Below, in pieces: positions 8,301 through 43,766 of a stretch of DNA of 64,000 bases (position 1 is its first letter; every line of letters starts with the position of its first letter). Origin of the DNA: Fidelibacterota bacterium (lineage in GTDB: Bacteria; Fidelibacterota; Marinisomatia; Marinisomatales; TCS55); NCBI GenBank assembly GCA_014239435.1, contig JAAZYX010000020.1, positions 124,001-188,000 of the forward strand, read 5' to 3'. Below the pieces are notes generated by a model. That model saw only the letters and a list, made by a program, of their open reading frames with translations. It did not search any database and was not told where the DNA came from. Both the position numbers and the translations under genes were made by a program.

Positions 8301-9425
8301 ATGAATTCACCAACCTTTTTTCTCGTAGCCGGGGAAACGTCCGGAGACCTGCATGGAAGCAAATTAATCCTTGAAATAAAACGCCAATATCCGAAGGCCA
8401 AATTTATAGGGCACGGAGGCGACAGGATGGCGAAGGCGGGGATGAAAATTCTGGAGCATTCTGATAAATTATCAGTCATCGGCTTTACTGAGGTTATAAA
8501 ACATCTGCCGTATTTTACCAAGGTAATGGGAGAAACACTTGGCGCAATTCAAGAGGTGCTTCCATCAAGAATTATTCTCATTGATTATCCGGGCTTTAAC
8601 CTTCGCCTTGCAAAAAATATTCACGGTTTAGGAATCCCCATTACCTATTTCATTCTTCCCCAAGTATGGGCATGGAAAGAATCGCGAGTTAAAAAACTTA
8701 AACAATTTATTGATCAAGCATTGTGCATTTTCCCGTTTGAACAGGAATGGTTCGAATCTCGCGGAGTACCTGCGTTTTTCGTAGGACACCCATTTGCTGA
8801 ATCCATCTCAGTTGAAATGAATTCTGAAGAGTTTTATTCCAAACATAATCTGACCAAACAAGAACCAATCCTTACGTTGCTTCCCGGGAGCCGGCAGCAA
8901 GAAGTGGACAAGCACCTGCCTATTTTTCTAGATACTTTTCATATGCTTAAAAAAGATATTCCAGATCTTCAGTGTATCTTGGGAAAGGCGCCCGGCATTA
9001 AAACCAACCAACTGCCATCTGGTGTAAGGATTGAGTCCGATCATCCTCAATCGGCCATTCAATTTGGCACTGCAGCTCTTGCTGCATCCGGAACGGTGAC
9101 GCTAGAATGTGCCGTATTGGATACACCCGTCGCCGTATCTTACAAATTATCTTCACTATCTTATCAATTCATTAAGCGGATGTCAAAAGTGCCGTATGTA
9201 TCCATCGTTAACCTCATAGCTGGAAGGGAAATCGTTCCTGAGTTTCTACAGTCTAAAATGACACCCGGGAACCTTGCCAAAGCAGTACGTCCTCTTTTAT
9301 CAAAAACGGGCGAGAGAAAGACTATGATTTTAGGGTATGAAGAGGTCAGGAGAACCTTGGGATTACCCGGAGTCTATCAACGCGCTGCTGAGGCAGTTTT
9401 ATCAAAAACAATACAAGTAGGGTGA
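8301..9425 (+). CDS. lpxB: lipid-A-disaccharide synthase
   Basis: The 374-residue product compares well with E. coli LpxB (382). It begins with the diagnostic AGETSGDLHG motif (residues 10-19) and contains LPGSRQQEV and a GT-B type C-terminal nucleotide-binding region (TVTLECAVLDTPVAVSYKLS). It condenses UDP-2,3-diacylglucosamine with lipid X at the inner-membrane surface to form the lipid A disaccharide. I chose the ATG at 8301; a TTG five codons upstream lies between the genes and is less convincing. Its stop overlaps the GTG start of the next gene by four bases. Confidence 0.95.
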   Translation: MNSPTFFLVAGETSGDLHGSKLILEIKRQYPKAKFIGHGGDRMAKAGMKILEHSDKLSVIGFTEVIKHLPYFTKVMGETLGAIQEVLPSRIILIDYPGFNLRLAKNIHGLGIPITYFILPQVWAWKESRVKKLKQFIDQALCIFPFEQEWFESRGVPAFFVGHPFAESISVEMNSEEFYSKHNLTKQEPILTLLPGSRQQEVDKHLPIFLDTFHMLKKDIPDLQCILGKAPGIKTNQLPSGVRIESDHPQSAIQFGTAALAASGTVTLECAVLDTPVAVSYKLSSLSYQFIKRMSKVPYVSIVNLIAGREIVPEFLQSKMTPGNLAKAVRPLLSKTGERKTMILGYEEVRRTLGLPGVYQRAAEAVLSKTIQVG

Positions 9426-10075
9426 AAAAGAAACTGACTTACTGGATTGGCATTTATTTTGGGAAGCCATTCTTACGGTTTCTGTACAACACCAACCGCT
9501 GGGATGTAAAAGGTGAGCATCATGTTAAAGATGCATTAAACGCCGGGAAATCTGTTATTATTGCCTGTTGGCACGATTGTTTGCTGATACCTTTTATGCA
9601 TCTGTCCGGTCAAAATCATTATGGGATTGCGGGCACACATGGCGACGCTGAAATTATATCCAGAATTGGAGAAAAGCTCGGATGGCAGGTATTGAGAGGA
9701 TCAAGCACGGAGCGCGGGAAAGAAGTGTATGATGAACTCTTGGACATACTAAACCGACCGGGGAATTTGGTTGCAATTACTCCTGATGGACCGAAGGGTC
9801 CCGCAAAAATTCCAAAGGCCGGCGCAATCCGGGCAGCACAAAAAACAGGGGCTGTTATTATTCCCGTTGCAGGAAGATCCACTAAAAGCTGGGGGTTTAC
9901 AAACTGGGACACTTTTCTTGTTGCGAAACCGTTCGGAACCATCTCTGCCGTTTATGGTGAGTCACTCAAATTTCAATTGGATGAATCGTTTGAAGACTGC
10001 GCTGAAACATTAACAACAGCGCTCAATAAACTTGAAAAACTAGCGGAAGAAAATGTTGCGGCCAGATCGATTTAA
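9422..10075 (+). CDS. DUF374 lysophospholipid/lipid A acyltransferase-like protein
   Basis: This 217-residue protein has the DUF374 (LPLAT superfamily) pattern. The stretch IIACWHDCLLIPF holds the His-Asp active-site pair, and GTHGDAEIISRIGEKLGW, RGSSTERGKEVY and ITPDGPKGPAKIPKAGAI follow. These are inner-membrane acyltransferases related to the late acyltransferases of lipid A. Its GTG start overlaps the lpxB stop, and lpxK begins inside its 3' end. This tight packing suggests it adds a secondary acyl chain to a lipid A intermediate, which is inferred from context only. Confidence 0.8.
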   Translation: MKKKLTYWIGIYFGKPFLRFLYNTNRWDVKGEHHVKDALNAGKSVIIACWHDCLLIPFMHLSGQNHYGIAGTHGDAEIISRIGEKLGWQVLRGSSTERGKEVYDELLDILNRPGNLVAITPDGPKGPAKIPKAGAIRAAQKTGAVIIPVAGRSTKSWGFTNWDTFLVAKPFGTISAVYGESLKFQLDESFEDCAETLTTALNKLEKLAEENVAARSI

Positions 10076-11090
10076 ATCATTAAGAATTTTTTTATTCCCG
10101 CTTGCGCTTTTTTATAGGGCAATGATATTTTGGAGGAATTTCTTTTACAATATCGGATTTTTTGTTTCAAAGCGCTTATCGTGTAAAATAATTAGCATTG
10201 GAAATATATCGGTTGGCGGGACAGGAAAAACTCCCGCGGTGATTTACATTGCTGAACTACTGCAAGATCGAGGAAAGCATGTGGCAGTATTAAGCAGGGG
10301 TTATGCAAGAAAATCTAAAGGAACCGTCCTCGTATCCGATGGAAAAGGAAATGTTTCTTCTTGGATCGATGGCGGTGATGAGCCCGTATTAATAGCACAT
10401 AAAATTCCCCAAATTCCCATTGTCGCGGATGAAAATAGAGTCCGAGGCGGGACCTATTTAATAGACAATTTTAACCCTGACTTTATTTTATTGGACGACG
10501 CGTTTCAGCACAGGGCAATTGAGCGTGATTTGGATATTGTTTTGATCAATTCTCAAATACAGGAAAAGATGAATAAGCTACTACCCTATGGTTTACTGCG
10601 GGAACCAAAAAACCAATTAAAGAGAGCGGATATAATTTTTTTAACTAAAACAAATCTTGGAGAATTTGAACCATCATTATCAGCAAGTTTAGATGTTCCT
10701 GTTTTTAAAAGTTTTATGGTGACACAAAGTATCCTTAAGAGTATTTCCGGTGACACTCTGGGGATTGATGCAATATCCGCAAAAAATGTTTTTGCAGTAT
10801 CTGGATTAGGCGATCCCGAAAGTTTTCATTCTTCTATTACACGAATGGGGGCGCACATTTCCGGCCATTATACAAAACCGGATCATTACAATTATTCCGA
10901 TGATGATGTAAATAAAATAATAAAACATGCTCAGCAAACGAGTGCCGATTTAATTATAACGACTGAGAAGGATTTGGTTAAACTGGGAAGTTTTAATTGG
11001 GCAGAATTGCCGGTTTTGGCTATCCCGATTAGATTTGAGCCTGAAGAAACGGGGCGGAAAAAACTGTTACAATTGCTCAATCTGGAATGA
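10053..11090 (+). CDS. lpxK: tetraacyldisaccharide 4'-kinase
   Basis: The 345-residue LpxK phosphorylates the 4' position of the lipid A disaccharide. The N-terminal membrane-associated helix is followed by the family P-loop GNISVGGTGKTP (residues 50-61), and then by VLSRGYARKSKG, DDAFQHRAIERDLDIVLIN and the C-terminal TTEKDLVKL, all characteristic. A TTG start at 10053, inside the end of the acyltransferase gene, gives about the same N-terminal length as E. coli LpxK. The first ATG (10122) would remove most of the membrane helix. It is the last gene of the lipid A operon and ends three bases from a convergent gene, with no room for a separate terminator. Confidence 0.93.
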   Translation: MLRPDRFKSLRIFLFPLALFYRAMIFWRNFFYNIGFFVSKRLSCKIISIGNISVGGTGKTPAVIYIAELLQDRGKHVAVLSRGYARKSKGTVLVSDGKGNVSSWIDGGDEPVLIAHKIPQIPIVADENRVRGGTYLIDNFNPDFILLDDAFQHRAIERDLDIVLINSQIQEKMNKLLPYGLLREPKNQLKRADIIFLTKTNLGEFEPSLSASLDVPVFKSFMVTQSILKSISGDTLGIDAISAKNVFAVSGLGDPESFHSSITRMGAHISGHYTKPDHYNYSDDDVNKIIKHAQQTSADLIITTEKDLVKLGSFNWAELPVLAIPIRFEPEETGRKKLLQLLNLE

Positions 11091-19758: not shown

Positions 19759-20379
19759 ATGGTACAATATTTCATAGATGGCGGTCCTTTTATGTGGCCC
19801 ATTTTGCTATCACTGGTTTTCGGGCTGGCATTTGTTGGTGAACGCGCCTATTCATTGATTAAATCATCAATTGATTCAAAAAAGTTTTTTGATGATGTGA
19901 GTAGCACATTGAATGATAGCGGAGCTCAGGCGGCTTTGGAATTGTGTAATAATACTCATGGTCCTGTAGCGGAAATTTTTCATGCCGGTCTTTCCAGAAT
20001 GCACCGTGGACTCGGCACCGTAGAAAAAGCTATTCAAAATGCCGGTAGCCTTGAAATGTCTTTTCTTGAAAAAAACATGATATGGCTTAATGCGGTTATT
20101 ACCATTGCTCCAATGATTGGTTTTACGGGGACAGTTGTCGGTATGATTGGCGCGTTTGATGCTATCAAAGCTGCGAACGACATATCTCCGGCTGTGGTTG
20201 CCGGAGGAATTTCCCAAGCTCTCCTAACCACAGCATTTGGACTCGTTACGGCAATGATTATTCAGGTGTTCCAAAACTTTTTTGTATCCCGGATTGATAA
20301 ACTTATTCTGGAAATGGAAGAACATTCTGTTCAGCTTGTAGATCAGCTCTACGAACTGGAAGCAAAAAAGGCAGTATAA
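19759..20379 (+). CDS. exbB: ExbB/TolQ/MotA-family proton channel protein
   Basis: This is a 206-residue inner-membrane protein with three membrane segments (about 12-32, 108-132 and 150-175) and the family core (MIGFTGTVVGMIGAFDAI, then ISQALLTTAFGLVTAM). It forms the pentameric channel of a TonB-type energy transducer. GGAGG lies eight bases upstream of the ATG. The stop is immediately followed by the first ExbD gene, so the set is one operon ending in tonB. That context selects ExbB over TolQ. Confidence 0.9.
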   Translation: MVQYFIDGGPFMWPILLSLVFGLAFVGERAYSLIKSSIDSKKFFDDVSSTLNDSGAQAALELCNNTHGPVAEIFHAGLSRMHRGLGTVEKAIQNAGSLEMSFLEKNMIWLNAVITIAPMIGFTGTVVGMIGAFDAIKAANDISPAVVAGGISQALLTTAFGLVTAMIIQVFQNFFVSRIDKLILEMEEHSVQLVDQLYELEAKKAV

Positions 20380-20775
20380 ATGGCCGTGAAACGGCGAATT
20401 AAAGGAGGAGAAATCCCTACCTCTTCTATGGCAGATATTGCTTTTCTGCTTCTTATCTTTTTCCTCGTTACTACTACGATTGATATGGATAAAGGGCTTG
20501 GTATCATCCTGCCTGCGGAAGGGCAGGAAATGGAAATTAAGAAAAAGAATATCCTGAATTGTCTTATTAACTCCTCGGGGCAGGTTCTGCTTGGAGGAGA
20601 TCCAACCCCGGTAAGCGAAATCAACAAAGTCGTAAGAAGAAAAATCAAAGAAAACGATAAGCTGATTATTTCTGTAAAAGCGCACAATAAAACACCTTAC
20701 AAGTCATATGTGTCGGTAATTGATCAGCTTAAAATGGCCAATGCGACCAGAATTTCCATCGCAGATTCAGAATAA
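20380..20775 (+). CDS. exbD: ExbD/TolR-family protein, first copy
   Basis: The 131-residue protein has a short cytoplasmic start, one membrane helix that begins SSMADIAFLLLIFFLVTT, and a periplasmic domain. Asp19 at the start of the helix is the conserved proton-carrying aspartate. It starts immediately after exbB, with no spacer, and its stop overlaps the second ExbD start. The C-terminal part (VSVIDQLKMANATRISIAD) is the usual ExbD fold. Confidence 0.88.
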   Translation: MAVKRRIKGGEIPTSSMADIAFLLLIFFLVTTTIDMDKGLGIILPAEGQEMEIKKKNILNCLINSSGQVLLGGDPTPVSEINKVVRRKIKENDKLIISVKAHNKTPYKSYVSVIDQLKMANATRISIADSE

Positions 20776-21185
20776 TGGCTTTCAACAGAAAAACCCAACT
20801 TGACACTGAGATTCCAACGGCTTCTATGCCGGACATTATTTTTATGCTACTCATCTTTTTTATGGTCACAACAGTTCTTAGAGAATATTCAGGTTTGCCG
20901 ATTGAATTGCCACGAGCGAAACGTATTGAAAAGCTAAAATCAAAACGCCATACATCTCATATTTGGGTTTCAAAAGACGGACTTATTTCTATAGAAGATA
21001 AACTGTATGACGTTGCCAGCGTCCGGCATGTCATGTATGAAAAACGTGTTTCTGACCCACAACTTACTGTTTCGTTAAAAGCGGATGAATCTGCAAAAAT
21101 GAAGCTTATTTCCGGACTTCATGTTGAGCTCCGAAAAGCAGATGCGCTAAAATTGAACTATTCAACCAAAACAGCCGTAGACTAA
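20775..21185 (+). CDS. exbD: ExbD/TolR-family protein, second copy
   Basis: The 136-residue paralogue of the preceding gene has the conserved helix TASMPDIIFMLLIFFMVTT, with the proton-binding aspartate at residue 20. The periplasmic domain differs clearly from the first copy, so the pair may form a heterodimer in the ExbB channel. Its start overlaps the upstream stop by one base and tonB begins two bases after its stop. ExbB with two ExbD genes and TonB is a known arrangement in Bacteroidota-like genomes. Confidence 0.88.
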   Translation: MAFNRKTQLDTEIPTASMPDIIFMLLIFFMVTTVLREYSGLPIELPRAKRIEKLKSKRHTSHIWVSKDGLISIEDKLYDVASVRHVMYEKRVSDPQLTVSLKADESAKMKLISGLHVELRKADALKLNYSTKTAVD

Positions 21186-21187
21186 AT

Positions 21188-21817
21188 ATGGGACTAAGCG
21201 GAAACGAATTAATGACGTTAAAAAACCAGTATCGGATTACGGTGCGAATGGCTGGGCTTACCGGAATTTTATTGATCACTTTTGGGTTTTTAATTTTTCC
21301 AAGAGGTGCCGTTGTGATGGATTTGGATGAAGGCGTTCAAATAATCATTGAGCAAATTGACATTCCACAAACAGAGCAATTTGATCAGCCTCCGCCGCCT
21401 GCAAGGCCATCCGTCCCTGTGGAATCGGAAAGCGAAGATATTGCCGATGATGTAACTCTAGATGAATTTGATTTAGCCGGATTTGATCCATGGGCGGCAG
21501 CGCCGCCTCCACCAGAAGGTCCGCGTGTAAGATTTATTCCTTACGATGACCCTCCACAGCCCCTTTCACGTATCAATCCAAAATACCCGGACATTGCCCA
21601 GGAGGCCGGGATCGAAGGCACCGTTGTCATACAGGTGTTTATTGATAAAAAAGGTAGGGTTCAGGATATGCAAGTTCTAAAAGGTATTCCAAATACAGGG
21701 CTTGATGAAGCAGCAATGGAAGCAATTCGAAAAACAAGATTTACTCCAGCAAAACAACGAGACCGGCCGGTAGGTGTTTGGATTTCAATCCCGGTAAATT
21801 TTAGGCTCAAAAACTAA
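21188..21817 (+). CDS. tonB: TonB energy transducer
   Basis: The 209-residue protein has one N-terminal membrane helix (about 22-40), a proline-rich and acidic linker (PPPPARPSVPVE, PPPPEGP) and a C-terminal TonB domain. The domain contains INPKYPDIAQEAGIEGTVVI and ends in RPVGVWISIPVNFRLKN. It transmits the energy of the ExbBD channel to outer-membrane receptors. An ATG at 21212 is an alternative start with little effect. The gene ends just before a strong bidirectional terminator. Confidence 0.92.
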   Translation: MGLSGNELMTLKNQYRITVRMAGLTGILLITFGFLIFPRGAVVMDLDEGVQIIIEQIDIPQTEQFDQPPPPARPSVPVESESEDIADDVTLDEFDLAGFDPWAAAPPPPEGPRVRFIPYDDPPQPLSRINPKYPDIAQEAGIEGTVVIQVFIDKKGRVQDMQVLKGIPNTGLDEAAMEAIRKTRFTPAKQRDRPVGVWISIPVNFRLKN

Positions 21818-36253: not shown

Positions 36254-37186
36254 TTATTCCACCATTTCGGATCCACCTACAAAGTCTTCTAAATTATATG
36301 CCCCGTCTTTTTCCATCTGTTTCGCGGCCTGCACAACAGACTTGCGAGCACCATCTACCTCGCGTTTCGAAATTGCTCCTTCAACCGGCTCATACATCGC
36401 CTGTTTTTTCTGAGGAAGATTTTCAATTACTCGGCCACTGATGTCGTCGGACATGCCTTTTAGAGCCAATGCAACCACATCCAGTTCCACAGAATTCATC
36501 AAATCGCGAATGATATTATCCGGGAATAGCTCAAAAATAGAATCAAACGTAATGTGATATTTTCTTACTTCTTCCGCAAGCTCTGGGTCTTCTATAGTAA
36601 GCGCTTCCAGAAATTGTTTTTCTTCCTCCGGGCTCATTTCACCCAATAAATCTGCCACTTCTTTTCCGCCGCCTCTTGAAAATTCCACAGTTTTGGGCAA
36701 TACTTGTGAATTCTTTTTTAGCCTTGTAGCGATATTGACAATGGCCTGAAGGGGGACATCCTGCAAATTCCCCATATTTCTAAGGACTGTATTCCTCACC
36801 TCTCCATCCAATCTACCCATAACGGCCGTTTTCCGATCATTGGGAACCTGAGCCAGAATAATTGCAATTACACGCGGTGCTTCTGTACTTAACAGAGCTA
36901 CGAGTTGCTCATCTGTTATTTCTGTAAGAAACTCAAAAGGTTTTTTAGGCTCATCGCTATCGTCTTCTTCGAATTTTTCACTCACAAAATTGAAGTAAAA
37001 ATCTTCCATGACCCGCTTTTTAACAGAAAAAGCCACGTCGCCCATCTCTCGAATTGCAGACCTAATTTTCCGGATATCCGTTTTGCTTAAATCCTTTACC
37101 AAAGTAAGCGCTAGGCTCTCACCCAAAGTTGAAAACAGGATGGCAACCTTTTGCAGGCCAGACAGCTGGTTATAATCAGTAATCAT
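36254..37186 (-). CDS. fliG: FliG-like rotor (motor switch) protein
   Basis: The 310-residue protein matches FliG (331 residues in E. coli) over its whole length. The N-terminal domain (about 8-75) corresponds to the FliF-binding part. The middle domain contains STEAPRVIAIILAQVPNDRK (about 100-119). A glycine linker GGGKEVADLL (172-181) precedes the C-terminal domain, with DPELAEEVRKYHITFDSIFEL and SVELDVVALALKGM. Arg227 appears to fall where the torque-helix arginine of FliG sits. In flagella FliG is the rotor ring on which MotA acts. Here it is last in an operon with MotA, MotB and a FliF-like protein, with no other flagellar gene. Confidence 0.85.
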   Translation of the reverse strand: MITDYNQLSGLQKVAILFSTLGESLALTLVKDLSKTDIRKIRSAIREMGDVAFSVKKRVMEDFYFNFVSEKFEEDDSDEPKKPFEFLTEITDEQLVALLSTEAPRVIAIILAQVPNDRKTAVMGRLDGEVRNTVLRNMGNLQDVPLQAIVNIATRLKKNSQVLPKTVEFSRGGGKEVADLLGEMSPEEEKQFLEALTIEDPELAEEVRKYHITFDSIFELFPDNIIRDLMNSVELDVVALALKGMSDDISGRVIENLPQKKQAMYEPVEGAISKREVDGARKSVVQAAKQMEKDGAYNLEDFVGGSEMVE

Positions 37187-37196
37187 TTCCTATCCT

Positions 37197-38741
37197 CTAC
37201 TTTTTCTTTTTCTTCTTTTTTTTCTTTTTACCGTCATCGTCACCGTCTGCGGATTCTTCTGCCTGAGGTGTTTCTGGTTCCGGCGGAGCCGGTGCTTCGG
37301 TAACAATCCAATCCTGCACAATCTTTGTTGCCGTGGAAGGCTGACCAACGCTCATGGAAACAACTGCCTGCTTCATATCATTGATTTCACTCTGAATAAC
37401 ACTCGGATCCTCAATGGAACTCGGCACAATTGTTTGCTGAGGCGCTGGAGTCGCCGTTTGTTTTGATTCACCATTTACTGGGCTATCTTTTTTTTTACGT
37501 GGGCGGGGAGGGTACATCCACGGTGGAGGAGGCGGAAACGCCTGCTGCTTATTCTTATTCCCCATGAGTACCATTACCAAAACTACCACAAGAACAATTA
37601 CAAGTGCTCCAAGAATAGACATGAAAACCACCATCATTGTAGAACTCCCGCCGGAGCGCCGGTCCAAATCCGATTGTACCGATTCCAGCATAGCCATCTT
37701 TTCGGCTATTTGCGCATCCAACTGAATTTTTTCGCCTTCTTTAAGATCCATTTGCGCCTGTAATTCTGAATCCGGCGCTGCAGAAATCAAATCCCTCAAT
37801 CCTTGGATTTCATCGTTTAAAGACTGAAGCTTCATTGAATCATCCTGAAGAATGTCTGTTTTTTCCTCCTCATAGGCCCGAGCGCGGGCAGCCATTTCAA
37901 GCTCCGACAGCTTCGATTGGAAATAAAGCCTGTCTTCTTCTCTGCGCTGAGCTTCGTTTTCTTTATAACGGTCTAGTTCAGACTTCCACGTTTCCTCATC
38001 TTCGGCATCATCCGCGGTTTGCTCTTCGAGGGATTCCAGTTTTTCCGCAATATTTTTTAACAGGATATGTTCAGCCGTTTTTTCATCTCTGCGCTCCTTA
38101 AAAGATGCGGTCATAATACTGAGCACATCCCCGCGCGCGCGGTTAAAACGGGATGCTACCATCACAACTTGTCGGATATTTTCAATTAGCTCAGGCGAGG
38201 CGCCTTCCTGTAGAATAATGGAAATATCCATTGCTTTAACACTTGCCACAGATGGGCGGATTTCTTTATGTGTTCTCGAATGGCGTTGTTTATCTTCAGA
38301 TTGTTGCTCAAACGGTTCGTATAATTCCTCTTCAACTTCAATGTCCGAAACAACTGCCGAAGGTTCCGGCTCTACTTCAAAATCAAACCCGGGGATTGGC
38401 AGACCCACTCCGGATACAGTCTGAGAGGAAGATTCCGCCTCAGATTCAATATCTTCAGAAAGGTTGTTAATTCTGTTGCGTGCTGGAGAAGATGATTCTT
38501 CTCCAGTCATGACAGTATACTGTTCCTCAACTGATCTACTCAATTCCAAATCTACGCTGACATCAACTACATACTTTTTATTATCAATTACTTTTGATAA
38601 AGCATCTGTAATTCTTGCGCGCAGATCATTTTCAACCATCAGTTTTTGAGCCAGATAACCCGACCCCTCTTGGGCGCCGAGGATTCCCAAGCAGAGGGCA
38701 GTCACCCACAAGATTGGATGATTCTTGAACCTCTTCATCAT
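37197..38741 (-). CDS. reduced FliF-like MS-ring protein
   Basis: The 514-residue protein has a signal peptide or anchor (about 5-23) and then a split domain resembling the third ring-building motif of FliF. Its first half is ITDALSKVIDNKKYVVDVSV and VDLELS (44-68). Its second half is AMDISIILQEG, then ASPELIENIRQVVMVASRF and RARGDVLSI (170-209). An acidic, Ser-rich insert lies between (80-165). A long coiled coil (215-365), a membrane helix (369-393) and a proline-rich cytoplasmic tail follow. The tail contains QPSTATKIVQDWI (467-479), like the FliG-binding motif at the FliF C terminus, and ends in ten lysines. The first two FliF ring motifs are absent. Position next to fliG supports the assignment. 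Confidence 0.65.
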   Translation of the reverse strand: MMKRFKNHPILWVTALCLGILGAQEGSGYLAQKLMVENDLRARITDALSKVIDNKKYVVDVSVDLELSRSVEEQYTVMTGEESSSPARNRINNLSEDIESEAESSSQTVSGVGLPIPGFDFEVEPEPSAVVSDIEVEEELYEPFEQQSEDKQRHSRTHKEIRPSVASVKAMDISIILQEGASPELIENIRQVVMVASRFNRARGDVLSIMTASFKERRDEKTAEHILLKNIAEKLESLEEQTADDAEDEETWKSELDRYKENEAQRREEDRLYFQSKLSELEMAARARAYEEEKTDILQDDSMKLQSLNDEIQGLRDLISAAPDSELQAQMDLKEGEKIQLDAQIAEKMAMLESVQSDLDRRSGGSSTMMVVFMSILGALVIVLVVVLVMVLMGNKNKQQAFPPPPPWMYPPRPRKKKDSPVNGESKQTATPAPQQTIVPSSIEDPSVIQSEINDMKQAVVSMSVGQPSTATKIVQDWIVTEAPAPPEPETPQAEESADGDDDGKKKKKKKKKK

Positions 38742-38771: not shown

Positions 38772-39563
38772 TTATCCTGCGCCTGCCTGCTCGATAAATT
38801 TACTCGAGTGGTGCGCCGGTTTCAAAAATGTAATTTCTACTCGTCTGTTTCGTGCCTTTTTCTCCGGAGTGGCATTATAAGCCCCCACTGTTTGGGTGTT
38901 TAATGCCATCATGGGATCTTTATCGCGCGGTACCCAATGCGCATACCCCGTTGCAATGAGTCGCGTTGGATCCACACCAAGAATAATGGCTTCCCGCACC
39001 ACAGCTGATGCCCGAGATGAGGCTAGTTCCCAATTACTTGGAAATCTGGTGTGAAATTTTTCAGGGAGAAGATCGCTATCTGTATGCCCGGCAACTTCGA
39101 TTTGAAATATAGAATTTTGAATTTGTGGTACTATATGATCTTTTAGCAGGTTTTTTAAATCATCCTTTAAATCAGCGCTTCCGGATCCAAAACTGAAGTC
39201 TCCGCTAATCTCCAATGTTACACCCTTGGGTCCTGTAGTGATCTCCACAGGCGGACTGCCTTCTGATTCTTCTTTTAAATCTTCGATCATCTCTTCCAAA
39301 TTATCTTTTACGTCGGCCAAGTTTGATGCTGCATTGTCCTTTTTTATTTTAGTTCCGAGCGACTTTCCTGTTGAGTTTGCCATTTCCATTAGTTTTACAG
39401 GATCGATGGTAGAGATTGCTGCCAGCAATACAAAGAAAGCGAACAACAAAGTCATCATATCCGCAAATGTTCCAAACCATCCCGGTAATCCTTCATCAAC
39501 TAAAGTTTTTCCCTTTTTAATTCCTTTTTTGAATTCCTTTTTTTCTTTTGATGTTTTAGGCAT
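38772..39563 (-). CDS. motB: MotB-like stator protein with OmpA peptidoglycan-binding domain
   Basis: The 263-residue protein has a very basic cytoplasmic start, one membrane helix with GTFADMMTLLFAFFVLLAAI, and a linker followed by a C-terminal OmpA/MotB domain (about 150-258; IEVAGHTDSD, ELASSRASAVV, KARNRRVEITF). Asp35 in the helix matches the proton- or sodium-carrying aspartate of MotB. It should anchor the stator to peptidoglycan. Five bases separate it from motA upstream and 30 from the FliF-like gene downstream. ExbD/TolR is excluded by the large peptidoglycan-binding domain. Confidence 0.9.
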   Translation of the reverse strand: MPKTSKEKKEFKKGIKKGKTLVDEGLPGWFGTFADMMTLLFAFFVLLAAISTIDPVKLMEMANSTGKSLGTKIKKDNAASNLADVKDNLEEMIEDLKEESEGSPPVEITTGPKGVTLEISGDFSFGSGSADLKDDLKNLLKDHIVPQIQNSIFQIEVAGHTDSDLLPEKFHTRFPSNWELASSRASAVVREAIILGVDPTRLIATGYAHWVPRDKDPMMALNTQTVGAYNATPEKKARNRRVEITFLKPAHHSSKFIEQAGAG

Positions 39564-39568
39564 TTAAC

Positions 39569-40351
39569 CTACTCGGGAGCTTTCCATTCCTTTGGCGGAA
39601 TAAATGAATTCAGTTTTTCTCGCACAATTAATGGATGCTTTTTTTGGTGAATGAGCCTCGATGCCTCTACAAGCATTGCTTGAAGAGTACTGGTAAAGCT
39701 GGTTCGTGTATCTAGTTTTTCACTCATTGGTAAAAAGAATAAATTCGCAAATACTGCCCCATAAAAAGTGGTAATCAACGCGGCGGACATCCCCGGGCCC
39801 AAAGAGTCTGCGCCACCCTCTCCTCCAAAGCCTGATAACATAATTACCAACCCGATTAAAGTTCCGATCATTCCCCAGGCGGGAGCCATTGTCCCCATGG
39901 ATTTAAACAAACCTGCCTGAGTTTTTTCGCGAACTTCTCTGTATTCAATACGTGTCTCTAAAATTTCTGTCAATTCATCCAATGAATAACCATCTACAAC
40001 CATTTGAACGCCGTCTCTGAAAAACGGGTTTCTAATTCCTTCTACAGCTTTCTCGAGGTCTGCTACGCCTTTCCTTCCTACATCTGCGGCTTCTACTGCA
40101 TCATCAACAACATCGCCTAATTTTAACTTACCGCCTTTAAATACCGCGCCCATTGCTGCGCCCAACTTCATTACATCAGATAGGGGGAATGCAACCGAAA
40201 CAGAAGCAACCATTCCTCCAAAGACAATCGCAAAACTAGAGGGTGAAATAAACCCTGCCATGCTGGCATTAGCAGCGGCGGCGGCCATGAATATCCCTCC
40301 GAAAATGGAAGCCAATCCAATAATAATACCTACTATTGTTGCAATATCCAT
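39569..40351 (-). CDS. motA: MotA/PomA-like stator protein
   Basis: The 260-residue protein has four membrane segments (about 5-25, 38-55, 152-172 and 188-208) and a cytoplasmic loop between the second and third. That loop holds VGRKGVADLEKAVE, with Arg93 and Glu100 near where MotA/PomA carry the charged residues that engage FliG. GTMAPAWGMIGTLIGLVIML and ALITTFYGAVFANLFFLPMSEKL are MotA family blocks. Its length is closer to PomA/LafT than to E. coli MotA. It forms the ion channel with MotB and lies between the outer-membrane barrel gene (6-base gap) and motB. Confidence 0.92.
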   Translation of the reverse strand: MDIATIVGIIIGLASIFGGIFMAAAAANASMAGFISPSSFAIVFGGMVASVSVAFPLSDVMKLGAAMGAVFKGGKLKLGDVVDDAVEAADVGRKGVADLEKAVEGIRNPFFRDGVQMVVDGYSLDELTEILETRIEYREVREKTQAGLFKSMGTMAPAWGMIGTLIGLVIMLSGFGGEGGADSLGPGMSAALITTFYGAVFANLFFLPMSEKLDTRTSFTSTLQAMLVEASRLIHQKKHPLIVREKLNSFIPPKEWKAPE

Positions 40352-40357
40352 AAAGTG

Positions 40358-41722
40358 TTACTCCTCTAAAAAACTGGTGGACTTCAAACGGTTTTCATGA
40401 AGCGCCTTTAATACATTCCTTACATCATCATATTCAGGATCAAGGCGCAATGCCAAATTCCAATTAATAGTCGCTCTCTGTATATCTCCCAGTTTGTAAT
40501 AGATAGAACCTCTCCGAGCATAGGCCAACGCAAGATCTGGCCGGAGATCTAAAGCCATGTCAACTTCCTGGAGCGCTTCCCTGTAATCGCCTGCATAAAA
40601 ATATCTTAGAGAACGTGATAAATGGCGCATGGCTTCATTCATATGCTGCTCATCAACGTTTTTTGTGAGCTTAATCGACGATAAAGAATCTTCAAGAAAC
40701 TGGGATTTTTGTTCCATCGCAGCCAATCGAATCATCAGATTCCGCATTTCATTATTCATCATACTCATCGAATCTCGAAGCGAGTGTACGGTAAAATCGG
40801 CTGCCATGAGTGTAGAGTCAAATTGAACACCATATTCTCCCGTTCCCGGAAGTGTGGACGGATAGATGGGCGATGGGCCGTCAATTGGCGCTGCTCTTGC
40901 GGCACCTCGAGGAACGGACATGTCCAGGCCAAGCGTCCATCCGGGGTGCCCCTTCCAATACCGCTTGTTCCAGTCTGGTAATTTTTCAATGTGGGTGAAC
41001 CCTAGGTTCAGGCGATAATCCGAGGTAAGGGGGATGCGGAGTCCCACATTGATGCCCGTCCCGTCGAATTCACCCACAAGATCTATTCCTCCCCAGTTTT
41101 TCATAAAGGGAGTATTTAAAATAAAACCCGCAAACACGCCGGCGCCGGTTCCGGCTGTTTGGGATGTATCAAGGGCGGAAAGTGTATCCTGCGAAGAAAA
41201 TCCGCCGGTTCCAAACCCTATAAAAGTATTCATGGCATATGTTCCAAGCTGTTTTTCACTGCTTACAACACCAAAAAAAGAAAGCTGGTCCGGGTCGAGC
41301 GCCAAGCCGCCCTGTTCTTGATTTTCAAAAACTACATCATGCATTCCAATAGATAGGGACACGTGATTATATGTATAAACCCGCTGTTGGAAATGAAAGC
41401 CAAACTCTACGGGAGGCGTATAGGTGGACACATCTAGATTGGCAATGGATGTCGTGTCGCCACCTTGGGCCGATGAAAACCCGAGAATAAAGTTTTTCCC
41501 GAGGCCCATATCAAAATACACGCCTTTTGATGTATTGAGATTCCCAAAGTTATACACCTCTGACCCAAACCCAACGCGGAATAAATACGGCAGCTGACCG
41601 GATCTGCTGGTCGGGATTTTCATCATCACACCAGGACGTGTATAGGCAACACGCGTTGCGCTAAAGGCAGATGCGCCTAGGGCAACCAAAAGGGATATAC
41701 TTATAATCCGCAAATTTTTCAT
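40358..41722 (-). CDS. outer-membrane barrel-like protein with C-terminal TPR domain
   Basis: The 454-residue protein has a signal peptide (about 1-21, ASAFSA) and about 260 residues of Gly/aromatic alternating strands. These include FRVGFGSEVYNFGN, VYFDMGLGKNFILGFSSA and NVGLRIPLTSDYRLNLGFTH, which look like an outer-membrane beta-barrel. A short helical region (about 305-350) leads to a TPR domain (about 365-445; YFYAGDYREALQEVDMALDL, ARRGSIYYKLGDIQRAT). The TPR tail would face the periplasm or the surface and bind partners. Between the CpoB-like gene (4-base overlap) and motA (6-base gap), it is a strong candidate for the outer-membrane part of the motor. Confidence 0.65.
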   Translation of the reverse strand: MKNLRIISISLLVALGASAFSATRVAYTRPGVMMKIPTSRSGQLPYLFRVGFGSEVYNFGNLNTSKGVYFDMGLGKNFILGFSSAQGGDTTSIANLDVSTYTPPVEFGFHFQQRVYTYNHVSLSIGMHDVVFENQEQGGLALDPDQLSFFGVVSSEKQLGTYAMNTFIGFGTGGFSSQDTLSALDTSQTAGTGAGVFAGFILNTPFMKNWGGIDLVGEFDGTGINVGLRIPLTSDYRLNLGFTHIEKLPDWNKRYWKGHPGWTLGLDMSVPRGAARAAPIDGPSPIYPSTLPGTGEYGVQFDSTLMAADFTVHSLRDSMSMMNNEMRNLMIRLAAMEQKSQFLEDSLSSIKLTKNVDEQHMNEAMRHLSRSLRYFYAGDYREALQEVDMALDLRPDLALAYARRGSIYYKLGDIQRATINWNLALRLDPEYDDVRNVLKALHENRLKSTSFLEE

Positions 41723-42573
41723 TTAATTGCTTCGGCCTTTGCCAATTCGAGCCCGGCTAGTTTTGCATATTCGCTGTTTGGGTGCCACCTTACAATAGCA
41801 GAAAAAGCATTAAGTGCTTCGGATTCACGGCCGAGCTTACGATACACCAAGCCTTTTTGAATTAATGCATCTGCTTCTCGGCTTAAATCAGGACGGTGCA
41901 ATAAATCCTCAAGAATTTCTAAGGCTTTTTGATATTCCCCCTTTTGTAAATAGGAATCTGCCATCCAATACAAAATATTTTCTGCTGTGCGCGGCTGGGC
42001 CAATTCCAGCTTTAAGGATGAAAAATGTTTTAATGCGGCATCATAGTCCTCCCGCTGATATGCGAAAACACCTGACATGTAAATAGATGTGCTAAACCCT
42101 GCCTTGGGAGAGGCTTGAGCAGTGTAGATTGGCGCAGATTCGGTTAGCGGAATCTGGGGAGTCCTTGATTCCATGTAAGATTCTTTTAAATCTGCGATTA
42201 GGGTTTTGAGTTCGCTGTTTTCCTGCTTTAGAAATGCAATGTCGCTCTTGATAGAGTTATCCAATGAGGATACTTTTTCCTGTATCCTGTCCAGCGTTTC
42301 CATCATTTCTTTGGACGATGCCATATATACGGAGCCGCTTTGAATTTTTTTTACCCTGAATTTCACCTCATCAGATGTAGAGGCAACGACGCGGGAATAG
42401 GTTTCACTACCGTCCGACGGCTCAATTACGATTCCAAGGTCTAGAAAAAAGATGTCCGCGATGGATTCGCGGCTTACGTCTTGGGCTGTACTTAATGACA
42501 GTATTGTTAGTAACGACAGGGCGCTAAGCATGTGAGTCCTCAGATATAACAAAATCCCGACATTTTGATTCAT
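41719..42573 (-). CDS. periplasmic coiled-coil/TPR protein, CpoB/YbgF-like
   Basis: The 284-residue protein has a signal peptide (the inner ATG at 42531 gives MLSALSLLTILSLSTAQ). A coiled-coil segment (about 87-135) and at least three TPR-like helix pairs follow (GVFAYQREDYDAALKHFSSL, ENILYWMADSYLQKGEYQKA, LVYRKLGRESEALNAF). This layout is that of the Tol-Pal protein CpoB/YbgF. It overlaps the upstream stop (TAATG) and the downstream start (ATGA), so it belongs to the motor operon, where it could link inner- and outer-membrane parts. No tol or pal gene lies nearby. Confidence 0.7.
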   Translation of the reverse strand: MNQNVGILLYLRTHMLSALSLLTILSLSTAQDVSRESIADIFFLDLGIVIEPSDGSETYSRVVASTSDEVKFRVKKIQSGSVYMASSKEMMETLDRIQEKVSSLDNSIKSDIAFLKQENSELKTLIADLKESYMESRTPQIPLTESAPIYTAQASPKAGFSTSIYMSGVFAYQREDYDAALKHFSSLKLELAQPRTAENILYWMADSYLQKGEYQKALEILEDLLHRPDLSREADALIQKGLVYRKLGRESEALNAFSAIVRWHPNSEYAKLAGLELAKAEAIK

Positions 42574-43766
42574 TACTCGTATTCCTCCCAGTCGATTACA
42601 TAGGAATATCCTATGAACGATCCAAAAGAGTGTGGGACATAAAGTTCAAACGCGCCCGACGCGCCGGGCAAAAGCGTTGCATCCGTTGTAATGCCGGATT
42701 CAAATGTGTGATAGGCACCGCGAACAAAGGTTGTAAGTGTTTTTGTTTCGCCGCTCCAGTTTTTTCTAAATACAAAATCAACTTTAACAAAATCTGAGCG
42801 CCGCCCTCCAATATTTTTTACTTCGCCGGTAAAGATATAATTACCCTGCTTATCTTTTTTCTCACTGATATTCCCAACCAAAACACAATTGGCTGAATAT
42901 TGTTTTGCAGCATCTCTGCTTAAGCTGCCGGATGTATACTGAGGTTGGGCCAATTTTGGCATAGGCGGTGGGGAATAGCTGTCACGAATTTGCTCCGGCA
43001 CATACTCCTGAGATTCTTCCGTAACTACATTTTCAATAATGCGCACCACATTTTTGCGCTGAATAATCAGGTAGCCTACAAGTGTCTCAACTTTTAATGT
43101 TTCTTCGTCCTGATATACAATTTTCCCAAATACGGTGCTGCCGTTTTTAAGAATAATTTCTTTTGAATAAATGGCGAGAGGATTAACCCACATTTTGCTC
43201 AGCGCTTTTAGATCTTCCATCTCTGTATTTAAATGCTTGATTTCAGCATTGAGTTTTTTAACCTCGAAGCTTAATTCATTGATCACATAATTTTCATCAG
43301 AGCCGGGGACTTCGACTGGGGATGCTTCACCCGTGGAGCTTGCTTCTGCTGATTCCGTTTCCGCATTGGAAGAATCATCTGATTTTTCTTCTTTTGCCGT
43401 AGCCGCTCCGCCGCCGGATAAGGTTACTTCGTCCAAATCTACATCATCGTCTACAACGGATACCGGTATGTTTGCGGATCCCTGTTCACCTGCGTCAATT
43501 TGAAGGGTGTATTCGCCCGGGAGCACATCTTCAAAGTCAAAATTCCCGCCGCCGCGGCCAAACCGTTTTTTGGAAGTTTCTGTTCGCTGAGATTCCGACC
43601 CGTCTTCTTTTAATAATAAAACCGTTGTTTCGGTGACGCGTTCTTCGTCGACACCCACAACGGTTCCGGAAATCTCATATTCGTCCTTAGCCTGAAGGCC
43701 CGGCACAAATACCGCAAGAAGCAAGGGGTATAGGATTACCCCCTTCAAAATGTTGTTTTTACTCAT
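42573..43766 (-). CDS. secreted protein with carboxypeptidase-regulatory-like and FxLYD-like domains
   Basis: The 397-residue first gene of the motor operon has a signal peptide (about 1-26, GLQAK). A carboxypeptidase-regulatory-like beta-sandwich (about 30-115; YEISGTVVGVDEE, PGEYTLQIDAG) is followed by a Ser/Glu-rich linker. Next come a short coiled coil (about 165-190), a small all-beta segment (ILKNGSTVFGKIVYQDEETL to NVVRIIENV) and a C-terminal FxLYD-like domain (EVKNIGGRRSDFVKVDFVF). The parts suggest a periplasmic scaffold. I do not recognise the full architecture. It lies about 50 bases downstream of a good promoter. Confidence 0.6.
   Translation of the reverse strand: MSKNNILKGVILYPLLLAVFVPGLQAKDEYEISGTVVGVDEERVTETTVLLLKEDGSESQRTETSKKRFGRGGGNFDFEDVLPGEYTLQIDAGEQGSANIPVSVVDDDVDLDEVTLSGGGAATAKEEKSDDSSNAETESAEASSTGEASPVEVPGSDENYVINELSFEVKKLNAEIKHLNTEMEDLKALSKMWVNPLAIYSKEIILKNGSTVFGKIVYQDEETLKVETLVGYLIIQRKNVVRIIENVVTEESQEYVPEQIRDSYSPPPMPKLAQPQYTSGSLSRDAAKQYSANCVLVGNISEKKDKQGNYIFTGEVKNIGGRRSDFVKVDFVFRKNWSGETKTLTTFVRGAYHTFESGITTDATLLPGASGAFELYVPHSFGSFIGYSYVIDWEEYE

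Follow-up and report, generated by a model that had tools for sequence, protein, structure and literature searches.

We analyzed a stretch of 64,000 nucleotides (the window) from a Fidelibacterota bacterium (GenBank assembly GCA_014239435.1, contig JAAZYX010000020.1, positions 124,001 to 188,000). The organism belongs to Candidatus Marinimicrobia (or Neomarinimicrobiota), a marine and mostly uncultured phylum, and its genome is 93.4% complete. Our subject is a relative of the flagellar ring protein FliF, which is encoded on the minus strand of the window at 37197-38741, together with the seven-gene operon that contains it. (All of the operon's genes are on the minus strand.) The open reading frame begins with ATG, and its product of 514 amino acids comprises a probable signal peptide, one split ring-building motif (RBM3), a helical stalk, a single membrane helix, an apparent FliG-binding tail, and a poly-lysine end. 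An annotation made previously from the letters of the window (the first-pass annotation) had described this protein as a minimal FliF. As a whole, its sequence observation is confirmed and its interpretation is partly supported.

The YscJ_FliF_C family from Pfam, which corresponds to RBM3, matches residues 48-214 over the full length of the profile (positions 1-147 of 147; E = 3e-9; 37.9 bits, versus a cut-off of 23.8 bits). It also matches 45 of 46 homologs. The first-pass annotation had named the lack of any profile match to FliF/YscJ as grounds for giving up its reading; the match was found. The family that represents RBM1 and RBM2 (PF01514, YscJ_FliF) does not match the protein from the window or any of the 46 homologs, and a genome-wide search found no match to PF01514 anywhere in this genome. 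NCBIfam's model for fliF (TIGR00206) matches over positions 240-448 only, which is the RBM3 part (E = 2e-8, 33.7 bits), and the equivalog score of 129.75 bits is not reached.

Structural comparisons gave the same picture. The AlphaFold model has a mean pLDDT of 70.6, with the RBM3 core and the stalk mostly above 80. A Foldseek search with this model gave 18 matches at E ≤ 1e-3, all to FliF; 17 of them are S-ring or MS-ring structures (E from about 1e-6 to 2e-5, probability 1.0). When the model was aligned to FliF ring chains with VIA-align, the Z scores were 12.7-15.0 over 122-134 residues, while unrelated folds begin at Z = 9.4. (The match with Z = 15.0, over 130 residues, has a large root-mean-square deviation of about 9 Angstrom, which probably reflects a moving collar hairpin.) The claim of a single RBM3-like ring motif therefore holds, and it is well supported that this gene product is a relative of FliF, or a reduced paralog whose sole ring motif is RBM3. 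Its alignment has a mean column identity of 45%. RBM3 from Salmonella has been reported to form rings on its own (PMC8786727).

In the AlphaFold model, the secondary structure consists of a helix at 27-49, strands at 57-67, 71-78, 155-162, and 166-178, a helix at 183-196, and a strand at 206-212. RBM3 is thus modeled as a split ring motif. Pfam, the AlphaFold model, and the structure comparison place the first half (a helix and two strands) at residues 27-78 (38508-38663 in the window). The second half (two strands, a helix, and a strand) spans residues 155-212 (38106-38279) and includes the conserved motif RGDxLSIMT. The halves proposed earlier, at 44-68 and 170-209, captured the core of the motif but were somewhat too narrow.

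Residues 79-154 (38280-38507) form an acidic and mostly disordered insert, which lies where FliF has its beta-collar insert, as the first-pass annotation had noticed. Of its 76 residues, 20 are aspartate or glutamate and 4 are lysine or arginine. The insert contains a near-invariant (G)LPIPGF motif, whose residues Pro115 to Phe119 (PIPGF) are invariant in 46 sequences. In a profile alignment, GLPIPGF falls near the GxPG stretch of the collar insert of flagellar FliF.

A long stalk at residues 220-365 (37647-38084) separates RBM3 from the membrane. The model has helices at 220-321 and 325-365 with a break at 322-324. The stalk had been described as about 150 residues of coiled coil. It is indeed helical, but the coiled-coil signal is modest: in the sequence from the window alone, a period of 3.5 residues is not significant (p = 0.29), and a period of 3.67 has p = 0.007 among 13 periods tried. 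(The family's mean periodicity peaks at 3.5.) Among homologs from the same operon, the stalk's length varies five-fold, from 39 to 203 residues, and is 151 residues here by the same measure. Because its length varies so much, the suggestion that the coiled coil sets the diameter of the ring is unlikely as a conserved role. The other suggestion, that it reaches other parts in the periplasm, is plausible, given that a barrel-TPR protein predicted for the outer membrane, along with other putative envelope proteins, is invariably encoded in the operon.

Only a single membrane segment is hydrophobic enough to exceed the threshold, and it is centered on residues 370-391 (37569-37634), where hydrophobicity and the AlphaFold model both place a single membrane helix, just as first annotated. 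At the N terminus, residues 1-24 (38670-38741) are probably a cleavable signal peptide rather than a typical first transmembrane helix (TM1) of FliF; this is based on the alignment, with a conserved glutamine after the hydrophobic stretch, and on a model helix at 5-24. A conserved proline-rich stretch lies C-terminal to the membrane helix. The protein ends with ten lysines (37200-37229), and a lysine-rich C terminus is common to most of the homologs from the same order, but not to most of the deep-branching ones.

We then examined the tail. Residues 446-482 (37296-37406) carry the motif VVSMSVGQPxTATxIVKEW and are modeled as two helices, at 446-464 and 468-482. This region appears to be the counterpart of the FliG-binding C terminus of FliF. 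When a profile of the tail, including TATKIVQDWI, was aligned to the extreme C terminus of flagellar FliF, the hhalign score was 33.0. Across 200 column shuffles, the maximum was 19.7, and none reached 33.0. Trp478 in the tail is invariant in 46 homologs. In flagella, it is the N-terminal domain of FliG (FliG_N) that receives the C-terminal tail of FliF, and this domain is retained in the FliG-like protein from the operon. The claim that TATKIVQDWI belongs to a FliF-type FliG-binding motif is thus supported at the level of sequence.

The FliG-like protein (36254-37186, 310 amino acids) has all three domains of flagellar FliG. FliG_N, FliG_M, and FliG_C match with E = 8e-15, 1.4e-15, and 3e-21, respectively, all above Pfam's cut-offs, while the protein scores below NCBIfam's equivalog cut-off. 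As in flagellar FliG, Lys264 and a basic residue at position 281 are present (in 23 of 23 operon FliG sequences, with lysine or arginine at 281; in the window, Arg281 is replaced by lysine). In contrast to flagellar FliG, EHPQ and Arg160, a surface that binds FliM, are lost in all 23 sequences, the stretch between FliG_N and FliG_M is about 28 residues shorter, and the torque helix is shortened in this clade. The acidic pair in this helix (Asp288 and Asp289) persists in 8 deep-branching sequences, while the others, including this clade, have lost it. The FliG alignment has a mean column identity of 71%.

Overall, the FliF-like protein shares with flagellar FliF a split RBM3 with an insert, a membrane helix after RBM3, a C-terminal FliG-binding motif, and a gene that adjoins fliG. 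But flagellar FliF has RBM1, RBM2, and RBM3 and two membrane helices, with both of its ends in the cytoplasm, whereas the FliF-like protein lacks RBM1 and RBM2, and its signal peptide seems to replace TM1 and the N-terminal cytoplasmic tail. It also differs by the helical stalk of 39-203 residues between RBM3 and the membrane, by the poly-lysine end in its own clade, and by having no export apparatus.

The seven genes lie in a row and encode a first protein with a CarboxypepD_reg-like domain, a TPR protein, a barrel-TPR protein, MotA, MotB, FliF, and FliG, in that order. The gaps between them are -1, -4, 6, 5, 30, and 10 bases. The gene order is identical in 20 genomes from the same order, as far as the contigs reach, and it is the same in 13 deep-branching genomes, in which the TPR gene is often doubled. 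None of the seven proteins matches a family of rod, hook, or filament proteins. (Our genome-wide searches were aimed only at FlhA, FliM/FliN, and RBM1/2.)

The motA-like gene (39569-40351) encodes equivalents of Arg90 and Glu98, which are kept in 18 of 18 and 17 of 18 sequences, respectively. The motB-like gene (38772-39563) encodes the conserved channel aspartate (FADMMT), which is kept in every lineage we inspected, and a peptidoglycan-binding OmpA domain. These features are shared with the flagellar stator, and in a tree with a TolQ-like outgroup, the operon's MotA groups with flagellar MotA and apart from TolQ/ExbB (support 100/100). The operon's MotA differs in forming its own clade (95/96) and in being linked to a rotor without FliM/FliN. 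The residues that are kept in MotA, MotB, and FliG, together with the loss of EHPQ, fit a MotAB-driven rotor that would have no switch ring.

The remaining genes probably encode envelope proteins. The barrel-TPR protein (40358-41722) is predicted to consist of an outer-membrane beta-barrel, then a helix of 74 residues, and then TPR repeats. Its model is of medium confidence (mean pLDDT 72), and it is very conserved (mean column identity 68%). We dropped any assignment of the barrel to a family, since its matches were spread over several unrelated porins. The TPR protein (41719-42573) is an envelope protein similar to YbgF/CpoB, of which other lineages have either a single copy or two. The first gene (42573-43766) encodes a CarboxypepD_reg-like domain, a helix, a domain similar to the N-terminal domain of LA_0442 from Leptospira, and a conserved C-terminal domain; its mean column identity is 57%.

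Is this operon part of a flagellum? We searched 175 genomes from the phylum that are at least 80% complete. The operon's FliF is present in 129 of them, FliG in 135 (some of which may be flagellar FliG or partial matches), and the first operon gene in 137 (which can include partial matches). The operon is missing from the small-genome family f15 and from family f13. In a scan of named genomes, the matches listed were all from Marinimicrobia. FlhA is present in 36 of the 175 genomes, and 31 of these also carry the operon's FliF, as do 98 of the 139 genomes without FlhA. Beside the operon's set, the flagellated relatives have another FliG and a complete FliF that includes RBM1/2. The operon's machine is therefore independent of the flagellum: it is a separate machine, and not a flagellum that was reduced in place. 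In the genome that contains the window, genome-wide searches found neither the export-gate family FHIPEP (FlhA/SctV) nor FliM/FliN, and of 61 relatives, 54 (this genome among them) have no FliM/FliN. (Two genomes from one genus, G006 and G013, have FlhA, FliM/FliN, and MotAB, but we did not find an RBM1/2-type FliF or a flagellar FliG in them at loci L175 and L176. This may reflect breaks in the assemblies, as the contigs end before the expected place.)

The first-pass annotation had argued that the first ring motifs were lost because nothing is exported. RBM1/2, the export gate, and FliM/FliN are indeed absent from this genome, but in that form the argument is not supported. The trees do not show the direction of the change (the FliG tree is unrooted and the MotA tree indecisive; see below), and 31 of the 36 FlhA-bearing relatives also carry the operon's FliF.

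We think it probable that the operon encodes a non-flagellar machine that is driven by ions and has the reduced FliF paralog as its membrane ring. In this machine, RBM3 would make the ring, FliG would serve as the rotor, and torque from MotAB would be passed towards the outer membrane. From the parts, their residues, and their conservation, we infer how such a machine might assemble and rotate, and what its load, its link to the outer membrane, and its role might be. RBM3 would assemble into a ring in the periplasm, which the stalk would lift clear of the inner membrane. At 151 residues, the stalk could reach up to about 22 nm at full extension (0.15 nm for each residue), or perhaps less, given the break in the model at 322-324. 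The cytoplasmic tail of FliF would bind FliG_N, and the resulting rotor would have one layer, no FliM/FliN, and hence no known switch. Ion flow would turn MotA on MotB, which would hold the peptidoglycan, and MotA would drive FliG via the contact with Arg90 and Glu98. With FliG fixed to its tail, the FliF ring would turn, and torque would travel along the stalk into the RBM3 ring, which would act on the outer-membrane barrel-TPR protein. The likely role would be to move or energize something at the outer membrane, such as surface motility, movement of a surface adhesin, or outer-membrane upkeep.

Several points weigh against this proposal. That the complex assembles and rotates is something we only infer. 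The link between the RBM3 ring and the outer membrane is suggested by gene order and by the medium-confidence model of the barrel. In one family, the stalk has 39 residues, which is too short to span to the outer membrane by itself. Asp288 and Asp289 are missing from FliG in this clade, so torque transfer may differ. And it is unusual for a rotor to have neither a known load nor a known switch.

We found no published description, in the open-licence literature, of this operon or of a FliF-FliG-MotAB machine without a flagellum. Reduced FliF, single split RBM proteins, and ion-driven envelope motors without FliF or FliG are already known. SpoIIIAG of the sporulation complex is not known to be linked to FliG or MotAB or to have a FliG-binding tail. 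Like the FliF-like protein, it has a split ring motif resembling RBM3 of FliF, is anchored in the membrane, and occurs without a flagellum (PMC4768692). Chlamydia, which have no flagella, keep a reduced FliF fused to FliG, but the reduction is the reverse of the one here: their FliF is missing the domain that resembles RBM3 and some of the region that resembles SctJ, and no stator operon is described there (PMC4768692). GldLM from type IX secretion and gliding, and AglRQS from myxobacteria, are ion-driven motors of the 5:2 type that act on outer-membrane or surface parts; they are described without FliF or FliG (neither is named in PMC13104615), while the operon here keeps the flagellar rotor pair. 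As for the injectisome, the RBM1/RBM2 family of SctJ and FHIPEP are both absent from this genome. As most members of the phylum lack a flagellum, the bare flagellar rotor and stator, combined with a cut-down ring protein and with putative components of the outer membrane and periplasm, seem to make up an ion-driven machine of an undescribed type, which may span the cell envelope. If so, the generation of torque by FliF, FliG, and MotAB could be studied in a natural rotor of minimal composition, the operon would bear on the evolutionary assembly of the flagellum, and an unknown envelope activity would be suggested for an abundant and mostly uncultured marine phylum.

We considered other explanations for the operon. 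The machine could be the motor of type IX secretion or gliding, in place of GldLM from Bacteroidota, and could drive SprA-dependent secretion or the movement of adhesins. SprA is found in 172 of the 175 genomes (for instance at G000:C26:95894-100168 in this genome), sorting domains for type IX secretion have been reported in SAR406 (PMC5596340), and the usual motor subunit GldM (TIGR03517) is found in just one of the 175 genomes, not this one, and there it is probably foreign. However, some lineages without the FliF operon, such as families f13 and f15, also have SprA, so secretion itself can do without the operon. The search for GldM used a single model and could have missed a diverged form, and there are no type IX secretion genes in the operon. 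We consider this explanation unlikely. A Tol-Pal-like system seems a little harder still to credit. Under this explanation, MotAB would pull on or charge a complex that tethers the envelope or constricts the outer membrane, without continuous turning. The TPR protein does resemble YbgF/CpoB, MotB has its peptidoglycan-binding domain, and the products of the first gene and the barrel-TPR gene look like envelope proteins. But the same genome has a separate TolQ-like gene, the operon's MotA groups with flagellar stators instead of with TolQ/ExbB, and FliG and a ring-forming FliF are understandable chiefly as parts of a rotor.

Another explanation is that the operon is a remnant of a decaying flagellum, kept by chance. 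Within the order, only a minority of genomes have FlhA and FliM/FliN, and in one survey, 11% of non-motile species had leftover rotor genes (PMC12199754), which were counted but not explained there. A remnant kept by chance would not be expected to show such strong conservation of FliF, FliG, the barrel-TPR protein, and the first gene, a gene order that is fixed across the phylum, or coexistence with a second set of FliF and FliG in flagellated relatives. We reject the degenerate flagellum, as the operon is strongly conserved and coexists with full flagellar sets of FliF and FliG; chance retention is extremely improbable.

Where did the operon come from? In an unrooted tree, the operon's FliG is split from all of the sampled flagellar FliG with 100/100 support. 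Given this separation, a recent duplication of the phylum's own flagellar FliG is not supported. In the rooted MotA tree, placing all flagellar MotA in one group with the operon's MotA outside is not rejected (p-AU = 0.378). The trees are compatible with the operon's MotA lying either inside or beside flagellar MotA, and with RBM1-2 having either been lost here or been absent from the start. A published description presents FliF as resembling a fusion between RBMs of the SctJ type and an RBM3 like that of SpoIIIAG (PMC4768692), which makes a primitive absence of RBM1-2 worth considering. The operon would then preserve, or independently represent, a rotor that predates the flagellum's acquisition of its export gate. 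A FliF ring built from RBM3 alone would have worked with FliG and MotAB as a self-sufficient trans-envelope motor, and RBM1 and RBM2 would have been added later to flagellar FliF. We view this scenario as quite improbable.

Some further genes are related to these subjects. The lone genome with GldM (G125) has GldK/GldL/GldM-like genes in order on a 15.8-kb contig with a GC content of 0.28 (L279, G125:C9:3000-15818). G125 is rated as 5% contaminated, the contig is probably flavobacterial contamination, and the FliF operon was not found in G125. SprA, the outer-membrane translocon of type IX secretion, is usually called specific to Bacteroidota, yet it is near-universal in this phylum. The window also contains a Tol-like cluster at 19759-21817. 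Its first gene (19759-20379) encodes a TolQ-type protein that groups with TolQ in the MotA tree, and by position alone, the three short genes after it look like TolR/ExbD and TonB/TolA-like genes. Finally, this genome has a further, stand-alone MotA-MotB pair at about 8550-10100 of its contig C20 (L275 5055-6601, minus strand), and so does the closed genome G062 (L276 4130-6355). We recognized no FliG or FliF beside the stand-alone pair, whose MotA is placed together with that of the phylum's flagella (as a pair at 100/99).
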